Of a stretch of DNA of 32,891 bases, positions 28,468 through 30,753 are shown piece after piece. The notes below the pieces were generated by a model. That model made no database searches. It had not been told where the DNA came from and saw only the letters and a program-made list of their open reading frames with translations. The stretch comes from Pseudomonadota bacterium (lineage in GTDB: Bacteria > Pseudomonadota > Gammaproteobacteria > Acidiferrobacterales > UBA6901), in contig DAHXOO010000027.1 in assembly GCA_027364845.1 (NCBI GenBank), positions 1-32,891 of the forward strand, read 5' to 3'. Every line of letters starts with the position of its first letter. Within the stretch, counting starts at the first letter, position 1. The position numbers were made by a program, and so were the translations under genes.

Positions 28468-28548
28468 CAGGACCGTTTACCCGTTTTTCTCTGGTGCCGG
28501 CCGGTGGGGGCGTGGTCGGGTGCTCCGCCCCGACGCCGTGGCGCATCC

Positions 28549-29373
28549 TTGAACTACAGCCACACTTACCACGCCGGTAACATTGCCGATGTGTTCAAGC
28601 ATTATGTGCTCACGCTGGTGCTGGAGGCGTTGCACCGCAAAGATGCACCATTCTGCGTGGTCGACAGCCACGCCGGCGCCGGGATCTACGAGCTTGGGCG
28701 CGGAGGAGAGCACGAGCAGGGGATCGGGCAGTTGTGGCCGGAGCGTGGGGCCTGGCCGGCACTGGCCCGTTACCTTGAGATCGTTGCGCGCGTAAACCCC
28801 AGTGGCAGACTCAGATACTATCCGGGCTCACCGATGGTCATACGTGAGTTTCTGCGGGCCGGGGATAGGGCGGTCCTGCTGGAGCTGCACCCGCAGGAGT
28901 ATGCAACTCTCAGGGAAACGATGCGCGATGCCAGCGGCATTGGCGTACACCACATCAACGCATGGAACGGAATCAAGGCGTTCGTACCGCCGAAGGAAAA
29001 TCGCGGCCTGGTGTTGATTGACCCTCCCTACGAAAAGGCAGGCGAATCTACGGCTGTTGTCGCCGCGCTACGGCACGGCATGCGCCATTGGCGTAACGGC
29101 GTGTACCTGGCATGGTATCCGATCAAGGCGCGCCGGCCGGTAGAGTCTTTTTACCGTGCGGTGGCCACCATGAAGGCGCCCGCGCACGCGGTGGAGTTCA
29201 TCACGTTGCCGCTCGACATGGAACGCCGCCTTAATGGCAGCGGACTACTGGTGATCAACCCACCCTGGCGGCTCCTGGATACATTGCGCGCCAGCCTGCC
29301 GCCGCTTGCCGCGCGTCTTGCCGGTGCCAGCGGCTCGCCGCAGGTGCGGATTGTCGATCTGGCTGCGAACTGA
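28549..29373 (+). CDS. rlmJ: 23S rRNA (adenine2030-N6)-methyltransferase RlmJ
   Basis: A 274-residue methyltransferase. I start it at TTG 28549, since LNYSHTYHAGNIADVFKH matches the usual MLSYRHSFHAGNHADVLKH; the 15 codons upstream are not conserved. SAM motif I is VVDSHAGAGIYEL (38-49), and the catalytic Asn/Asp-Pro-Pro-Tyr motif is IDPPYEK with DPPY at 158-161. RlmJ methylates A2030 in 23S rRNA before the subunit is assembled. It lies 81 bases after the MazG-like gene, probably as the last gene of the argH run, and is followed by an FNR-type promoter rather than a clear terminator. Confidence 0.95.
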   Translation: MNYSHTYHAGNIADVFKHYVLTLVLEALHRKDAPFCVVDSHAGAGIYELGRGGEHEQGIGQLWPERGAWPALARYLEIVARVNPSGRLRYYPGSPMVIREFLRAGDRAVLLELHPQEYATLRETMRDASGIGVHHINAWNGIKAFVPPKENRGLVLIDPPYEKAGESTAVVAALRHGMRHWRNGVYLAWYPIKARRPVESFYRAVATMKAPAHAVEFITLPLDMERRLNGSGLLVINPPWRLLDTLRASLPPLAARLAGASGSPQVRIVDLAAN

Positions 29374-29422: not shown

Positions 29423-29463
29423 TTGATCTCCGTCAATGTCGTGATGTCAGAAAGGTGTAATGT
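29423..29463 (+). promoter_or_regulatory. class II FNR/Anr-type promoter
   Basis: TTGAT-CTCC-GTCAA at 29423-29436 matches the FNR consensus TTGAT-N4-ATCAA at nine of ten positions. The -10-like TAATGT at 29458-29463 lies with its centre 31 bases downstream of the box centre. That equals the spacing of class II FNR promoters, where the box is centred at -41.5. Transcription would begin near 29471. The box lies 50 bases after the rlmJ stop codon, and no annotated gene follows on this strand. Confidence 0.6.
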
Positions 29464-29470
29464 TAATTAC

Positions 29471-29648
29471 TCGTCAGCAGCTGGCGAGATGGCCGGCAGA
29501 TGGTTCCCACGGGGCAGGCTGGGGTGGATGCCACAGGCAACCCAAGCGCTGGGCTCGCAACAGATCCCTATCCGGGATGTCAAGTAACGAGCTTCTAGTC
29601 CCGTGGATCTGCCGGCTTATCCTTATGGTCCGCGGTGCCGGGGTTTTT
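29471..29648 (+). ncRNA. candidate multibranched structured RNA
   Basis: The segment closes on itself with a long stem: GCCGGCAGAT (29492-29501) pairs with ATCTGCCGGC (29607-29616), and CCACGGG (29507-29513) with CCCGTGG (29600-29606), leaving one five-base bulge. Inside it are a hairpin at 29522-29543 (GGGT, three-base bulge, TGCC, loop ACA, GGCA, ACCC) and one at 29564-29578 (ATCCC-TATCC-GGGAT). A weak terminator-like GCCGGGG followed by TTTTT ends at 29648. Expected as an anaerobically induced RNA because of the FNR-type promoter. Its 3' end overlaps ykgJ on the other strand. A transposon-like element with terminal inverted repeats is an alternative. No family is recognised. Confidence 0.5.
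29492..29616. repeat. 125-bp segment bounded by near-perfect inverted repeats
   Basis: The arms at 29492-29513 and 29600-29616 are complementary over 17 bases. No target-site duplication is obvious at either edge, which argues against a recent miniature transposon, and the interior can form two hairpins. It is best explained as structured RNA (see that entry). Confidence 0.7.
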
Positions 29649-30078
29649 CCTTGGGCAACGGACCGGTTAGCAAGGCCAGATCATGCCTGATCGTGGTGAG
29701 TGTAACCACCGGTCCTCGGCCAATCCCTTCGCAGCGTCGTGCCTCCGCCTTCCATGCGGCCGGTCGTACAAGTTCCGGCCACCACGGATAGGTTCGGCAC
29801 TGCAGTGGGCGTACCGCATACACGCGGCATCCGCGGTTGTCCAGGAGGAATGGACAGCGGCCGTTGACGCCGAGGCGAATTCCCTCGGTCTGATCATCCA
29901 CCGGTACGACGTAACGGCGCCGGAACCAGCGCTTCGAAACACCGAGATAAGCCCTTATCGCTTCCTGTTCCTCACGTCCGATCTCGACGTAGTGGTCAGC
30001 GCCGCCAATGCAGCAGGCGCCGCAACCGGTGCACTGAAACCGCAAACCGGCAATCTTTCCTTTCAGGTTTGTGAACAT
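29623..30078 (-). CDS. YkgJ-family cysteine-cluster protein
   Basis: A 151-residue protein of the CxxCxxCC family (UPF0153/YkgJ). The cluster motif is Cys16-x2-Cys19-x2-Cys22-Cys23 (FQCTGCGACC), with further conserved cysteines at 75, 84 and 94 (GRCPFL, GCRVYAVRPLQCRTYPWWP). The spacing suggests binding of zinc or an iron-sulfur cluster; flagellin methylase FliB contains the same domain, but there is no methylase here. The function of stand-alone members is not established. I use ATG 30078, since the frame upstream is not conserved. It is 79 bases downstream of the unknown 178-residue gene on the same strand, so the two may be one transcript. Confidence 0.85.
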   Translation of the reverse strand: MFTNLKGKIAGLRFQCTGCGACCIGGADHYVEIGREEQEAIRAYLGVSKRWFRRRYVVPVDDQTEGIRLGVNGRCPFLLDNRGCRVYAVRPLQCRTYPWWPELVRPAAWKAEARRCEGIGRGPVVTLTTIRHDLALLTGPLPKEKPRHRGP

Positions 30079-30157
30079 TTCGCGCGAAAACCCCCCGTGA
30101 TATTCTTCGTGGGCGCGCCCATATCGCTGGCTTGTTATGGCGATGCAGCCACGAGAG

Positions 30158-30694
30158 CTACTTGATGCGCCACAGCGCCGCCAGCGGCGAAACCGGGCCG
30201 CTGGTTGCCGGAACTGGGAGCTGAACGCGCCGGATATGGTCGAGCGCACCGGACACACGGTCGAACGCACCGTACAGGAAGCGGAACAGGCGCATGCGCG
30301 CTGGATCCGATTCGAAGTGGGCACAGTGCCAGAAAGCGCCGCGGCCTTGCTCGAGATAATAACTGAGCTGACCGCGCGCGGCCAGGCGCTCGCGGAACAG
30401 TCCGCTCATGAACAGCGAATACTCGCCAATGTGACGCACTATCAGCGCCTCGCGCGGCCGGTTAACCGGCGCATTGTCCCATCCTTGGGTGCGCCGCCAC
30501 TCGGTGAGCATGCCAGTGATGCTGGTTACCGGCTCGCCGTTGGCATTCTGGATGATATCGAGCGCGCGGATTTGGGCAAAACGGGTCAACACATCGCTTA
30601 CATAGTCGACGGCAGCCGGTTCCCCGACACCGTGAACCCCGAAACCGTGTTGGACCTGGCGGTGGAAAAACTGATAAAGACCCGGGACTAGCAT
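30158..30694 (-). CDS. hypothetical protein, 178 residues
   Basis: No family is recognised. The protein begins MLVPGLYQFFHRQVQHGFG and contains an alternating hydrophobic pattern in VDYVSDVLTRFAQIRALDII. An aromatic-rich middle (REALIVRHIGEYSLFMSGLF, YYLEQGRGAFWHCA) and a helical segment (RMRLFRFLYGAFDRVSGALDHI) follow. It has no signal peptide or membrane span and is probably cytoplasmic. ATG 30694 has AGGGGG seven bases upstream; a TTG two codons earlier is less likely. A TATAAT (30754-30759) lies upstream. Evidence that it is coding: sensible amino-acid composition, a good ribosome site and a promoter element, all on one strand. It may be co-transcribed with ykgJ. Confidence 0.75.
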   Translation of the reverse strand: MLVPGLYQFFHRQVQHGFGVHGVGEPAAVDYVSDVLTRFAQIRALDIIQNANGEPVTSITGMLTEWRRTQGWDNAPVNRPREALIVRHIGEYSLFMSGLFRERLAARGQLSYYLEQGRGAFWHCAHFESDPARMRLFRFLYGAFDRVSGALDHIRRVQLPVPATSGPVSPLAALWRIK

Positions 30695-30753
30695 CGACAA
30701 ACCCCCTGCCCGTTAACGCGGGCGCTGTCTGTCAGTAATGACTCTTCAAAGAA

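Follow-up and report, generated by a model that had tools for sequence, protein, structure and literature searches.

The stretch of DNA analysed here (32,891 nt, referred to below as the window) quite probably encodes a structured small RNA, about 155 nt long, which would be switched by FNR at low oxygen and act in trans, in a role like that of FnrS. On the best reading of the sequence, the RNA represents a new family, with no match in Rfam and a fold built as a closed three-way junction. The evidence is sequence-based and consists of promoter geometry, conservation, covariation, strand bias, the Fnr proteins encoded in the genome and the genome-wide set of FNR-type boxes; from these we infer transcription of the RNA, its activation by Fnr and its action in trans.

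A predicted FNR-type promoter

An FNR-type box, TTGATCTCCGTCAA, is found at 29423-29436 on the + strand. It is the single match to the pattern TTGAYNNNNRTCAA in the window, where dinucleotide shuffles lead to an expectation of 0.05, and it has one mismatch to the symmetric consensus TTGAT-N4-ATCAA. A -10 element, TAATGT, lies at 29458-29463 (+), 31 nt from the box centre to centre, which is the class II distance; this geometry had been pointed out in an earlier note on the same DNA and holds as described. With the box centred at -41.5, transcription would start at 29471, where a 5' hairpin has its base. Most of the sites at which FNR activates in E. coli have their centre at -41.5, and the fnrS site has its centre at -42.5 (PMC3688515). 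With the start inferred from this geometry, TANNGT occupies -13 to -8 in five of the six species that carry the element. The -10 is a poor one and in G001 reads CGATGC. A simple sigma-70 scan detected neither promoter nor terminator at the locus, as expected if the promoter is activator-dependent.

All six carrier species, of which five belong to one genus and the sixth to a sister genus, retain the box and its spacing. In the sister genus the box is a perfect TTGATCTGCATCAA, that is, the exact symmetric TTGATNNNNATCAA, with zero mismatches to the consensus. Among the five genus members, the half-sites TTTGA and GTCAA are invariant at all 10 columns and the sequence around them drifts; there, invariance holds at 2 of the 29 columns upstream of the box and at 4 of the 21 between the box and the -10. 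The earlier note had named absence of the box from relatives as one result that would speak against its reading of a class II FNR promoter driving a structured RNA; the box, its spacing and the structure are instead conserved in the six species, and a class II promoter of the FNR type that would feed a structured non-coding RNA is thus supported.

Fnr proteins and other boxes in the genome

Boxes of the FNR form number 39 across the genome, against 5 for a reversed-pattern control. The genes 3' of the boxes examined include cydA, dsrA, coxB, catalase and the pyruvate dehydrogenase E1 alpha subunit, each box being paired with its gene by position. In L083, a box at 1501 is found about 140 nt upstream of dsrA (134-1366, - strand), which encodes dissimilatory sulfite reductase alpha, and this suggests possible oxygen control of sulfur metabolism. 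In L089, a box at 1503 precedes a gene for catalase HPII by about 90 nt.

Two Fnr proteins (L112 and L116) score above the NCBIfam Fnr cut-off. Both carry the cluster cysteines, C-X2-C-X5-C plus an internal Cys (24, 27, 33 and 126 in one; 27, 30, 36 and 129 in the other), together with an ETVSR recognition helix (E-x-x-S-R). A third Crp/Fnr paralogue, L115, has the ETVSR helix and is without the N-terminal cluster cysteines. Dnr/NnrR-like NO-sensing proteins of the Crp/Fnr group read near-identical boxes, and the cysteine-poor L115 could read the same box while responding to another signal, for example NO. It is unlikely, however, that the same structured RNA is switched by such an NO sensor or by another Crp/Fnr paralogue, given that two canonical cluster-bearing Fnr proteins are encoded, that the sister-genus box is exactly symmetric and that boxes are numerous beside respiratory genes. 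Fnr itself is the regulator assumed in what follows.

Fold, covariation and strand

The predicted non-coding RNA spans 29471-29628 on the + strand, with its start set by the class II geometry and its end approximate. Its folding energy is -77.7 kcal/mol, compared with a shuffle mean of -59.2 (z -4.15), and none of 300 shuffles reaches it. In the fold plan, a long closing stem is continued by an inner stem, which opens into a three-way junction bearing two hairpins. At the 5' end stands hairpin 1, of 7 bp (29470-29488, +), in which compensatory changes are present. The closing stem is formed by a 5' arm at 29488-29501 (+), with 5 of 14 pairs changed on both sides, and a predicted 3' arm at 29607-29621 (+). 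The inner stem (5' arm 29507-29515, 3' arm 29598-29606, both +) appears in the predicted fold and in the covariation alignment, and leads to hairpin A (29516-29550, +) and hairpin B (29551-29594, +), the latter having a basal helix with 5 of 9 pairs changed on both sides. The closure comprises 17 pairs, in which GCCGGCAGAT and CCACGGG pair with CCCGTGG and ATCTGCCGGC, and a 5-nt one-sided loop separates the two parts. A 17-pair closure with two hairpins inside it had been described beforehand, and both are real; that account was right about the folded segment but overlooked the 7-bp hairpin at the predicted 5' end.

Hairpin A is invariant within the genus at 32 of 36 columns, above its flanks, and carries the motif GGCAGG-nn-GGGG-nn-GATGCCA common to both genera. 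The GATGCCA part, although shared by the two genera, is largely paired within the genus. Unpaired stretches of the predicted RNA are mostly 3-6 nt long. The 3' arm of the closing stem probably doubles as a weak terminator stem. It is followed by CATCCTTTTC in G002 and G003, ACTTATTTTATATT in G005 and TTATCCTTATGG in the window genome; the tail is U-rich in G005, has four T in G002 and G003, and is weak in G001 and in the window genome, where no T run follows the closing stem on the + strand.

Covariance modelling over the rlmJ-ykgJ regions, suggested in the earlier note, led to a sister-genus copy. Compensatory changes are present on both sides of 19 of 58 base pairs. This count comes from a six-row alignment that had been adjusted to the fold, a bias in its favour; the shuffle mean is 4.6, and none of 500 shuffles reaches the observed number. 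A control with slid partners gave at most 3 pairs with compensatory change, and the genus rows alone give six. Across the six rows, 95.6% of alignment cells pair. G-U cells outnumber A-C cells by 29 to 7, and the + strand therefore appears to be the selected one.

This strand bias bears on whether the element instead belongs to ykgJ or rlmJ as a 3'-UTR or terminator structure, transcribed from the neighbouring gene. Such an origin would suit an element that is flanked by convergent genes and separated from the ykgJ stop by 6 nt, and the minus strand folds well too (z -3.81). Yet the ratio of G-U to A-C cells favours the + strand, the minus strand has no T-run after the stem, and the core is conserved above its flanks. 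A conserved FNR box at a fixed distance would also be left unexplained, and we regard this origin as improbable.

Neighbouring genes

The upstream neighbour is rlmJ (28504-29373, +; Pfam RsmJ, E 1.3e-65). The convergent neighbour encodes a ykgJ-like CxxCxxCC protein (29623-30324, -; Pfam E 3.8e-12), the true start of which is probably further in than 30324. An antisense role at the end of ykgJ had been suggested for the RNA but is not supported, as the folded part stops short of the ykgJ stop, by 6 nt in the window genome and by 21 nt in the sister genus. The overlap between predicted RNA and ykgJ is a few nucleotides at most, and from these distances any antisense effect on the ykgJ coding region would be marginal at most. 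Between ykgJ and purT there is also a 180-aa ORF (30161-30700, -), which has no Pfam match and is 78-87% identical in four other species of the genus.

Conservation and identity of the element

A DNA search of 60 relatives found the element in four other species of the genus, always at the rlmJ-ykgJ junction. A covariance model built from the five genus copies only was then applied to 57 genomes of the order. It yielded a single additional match, in a sister genus (28.7 bits, E 0.0019 in a whole-genome search). This match again lies at rlmJ-ykgJ and is the sole one in its genome, and it brings the carriers to six species of one family. The sister-genus copy is 53-57% identical to the genus copies and, folded on its own, forms the closing stem, the junction and both hairpins again (z -4.03). 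In the window genome the model matches 29467-29626. Counted from the predicted start, the core is reached at +40 to +43 and the end of the closing stem at +143 to +146 in the six species. The records bearing the element are metagenome-assembled genomes, and an acid mine drainage origin of the carriers is read from isolate names.

In a third genus of the family, rlmJ is followed by different sequence, and the genome (about 80% complete) contains no match elsewhere. A model that includes the sister copy found no additional member among 40 relatives, nor did a class-wide model search of 369 genomes, in which strict filters were applied and eight candidates were scored per genome, so that distant relatives may have been missed. 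Exact-pattern scans, made with the sequence pattern only, matched 24 viral contigs; a further match in L019 was rejected as chance, as it lies inside a coding gene.

Compared with Rfam, first under the gathering score and then with E values up to 10, the window and the sister copy gave chance-level matches only, and FnrS was not one of those at the looser limit. A second 6S RNA was rejected as an identity because the RF00013 model is unmatched here and the 6S RNA of the genome is located elsewhere. A CsrA sponge is unlikely, there being one exposed GGA in hairpin A of the genus and none there in the sister genus. No literature relevant to small RNAs in these acidophiles was found.

The earlier note had remarked that no gene follows the promoter, and the + strand indeed holds no Pfam-matching ORF after it. 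Two ORFs do span the stretch, one of 54 aa with a TTG start and one of 76 aa with ATG, and could be taken for a short coding gene controlled by FNR. Stops interrupt their frames, as do a 1-nt deletion in G001 and indels in G005, neither ORF has a Pfam match, no reading frame is conserved across the carriers and conservation follows base pairs, not codons, all of which makes a coding gene very improbable. A mobile element or repeat in which the FNR-like box is fortuitous, which the strong terminal inverted repeat and the narrow distribution might suggest and a target-site duplication and multiple copies would have betrayed according to the earlier note, can be dismissed with near certainty, as the element is single-copy in the genome, occupies the identical junction in six species and has no match in plasmids or phages.

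Possible mode of action

For the FNR-switched small RNA, the following course of events can be proposed. Reduced Fnr would bind the box at -41.5 and recruit RNA polymerase, by class II activation, to the poor -10. The RNA would begin with the short hairpin and continue through the GC-rich closing stem into the three-way junction and its two hairpins; the closing stem, after which comes a variable, often U-rich tail, would probably end transcription. The RNA may then act in trans and extend the Fnr regulon to the post-transcriptional level. Since the six carriers have all retained the promoter, the position and the fold, the RNA probably helps these bacteria to adjust to oxygen depletion.

Hfq is encoded in five of five genomes checked, and a search of five genomes gave no match to ProQ. 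Of the features expected in an Hfq-dependent sRNA, Hfq is thus encoded and a strong terminator with a long U run is lacking. With its weak U tail and no long unpaired stretch, the RNA fits the textbook Hfq type poorly. Within the genus, the hairpin sequences are nearly fixed, beyond what pairing needs, which suggests that the folded core itself may be recognised rather than a linear seed; the scarcity of long single-stranded stretches leans the same way. We put forward only tentatively the fuller proposal that Fnr controls an oxygen-switched RNA that binds protein or has some other structural role, and in which, unlike in the FnrS-type RNAs, the core and not a linear seed is recognised.

Comparison with known systems

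The predicted RNA resembles FnrS of E. coli and other enterobacteria in its predicted FNR activation from one class II site, an intergenic position and a likely role as a trans-acting low-oxygen regulator (PMC3688515). It differs from FnrS in showing no Rfam-detectable similarity, in its closed three-way-junction fold without a long unstructured region, in its weak U tail and in its neighbour genes. Gonococcal (Neisseria) FnrS likewise has an FNR class II box and a -10 before a non-coding transcript (PMC3032703). The FNR-induced gonococcal RNA is described as having a 5' stem-loop, an unstructured region and a terminator (PMC3032703), whereas the present RNA has almost no unstructured region and no Rfam sequence match. 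With 6S RNA (RF00013) it shares a long closing stem, a conserved fold and a similar size, but 6S RNA is a single rod with a central bubble, and the present RNA a three-way junction.

The same bacteria have FNR-type boxes before genes for dissimilatory sulfite reductase, cytochrome bd and catalase, and the covariance model together with six natural variants makes structure probing and target searches practical. To our knowledge, few FNR-controlled small RNAs are known, and the present RNA would add a second architecture to them, in uncultured acid-mine bacteria.
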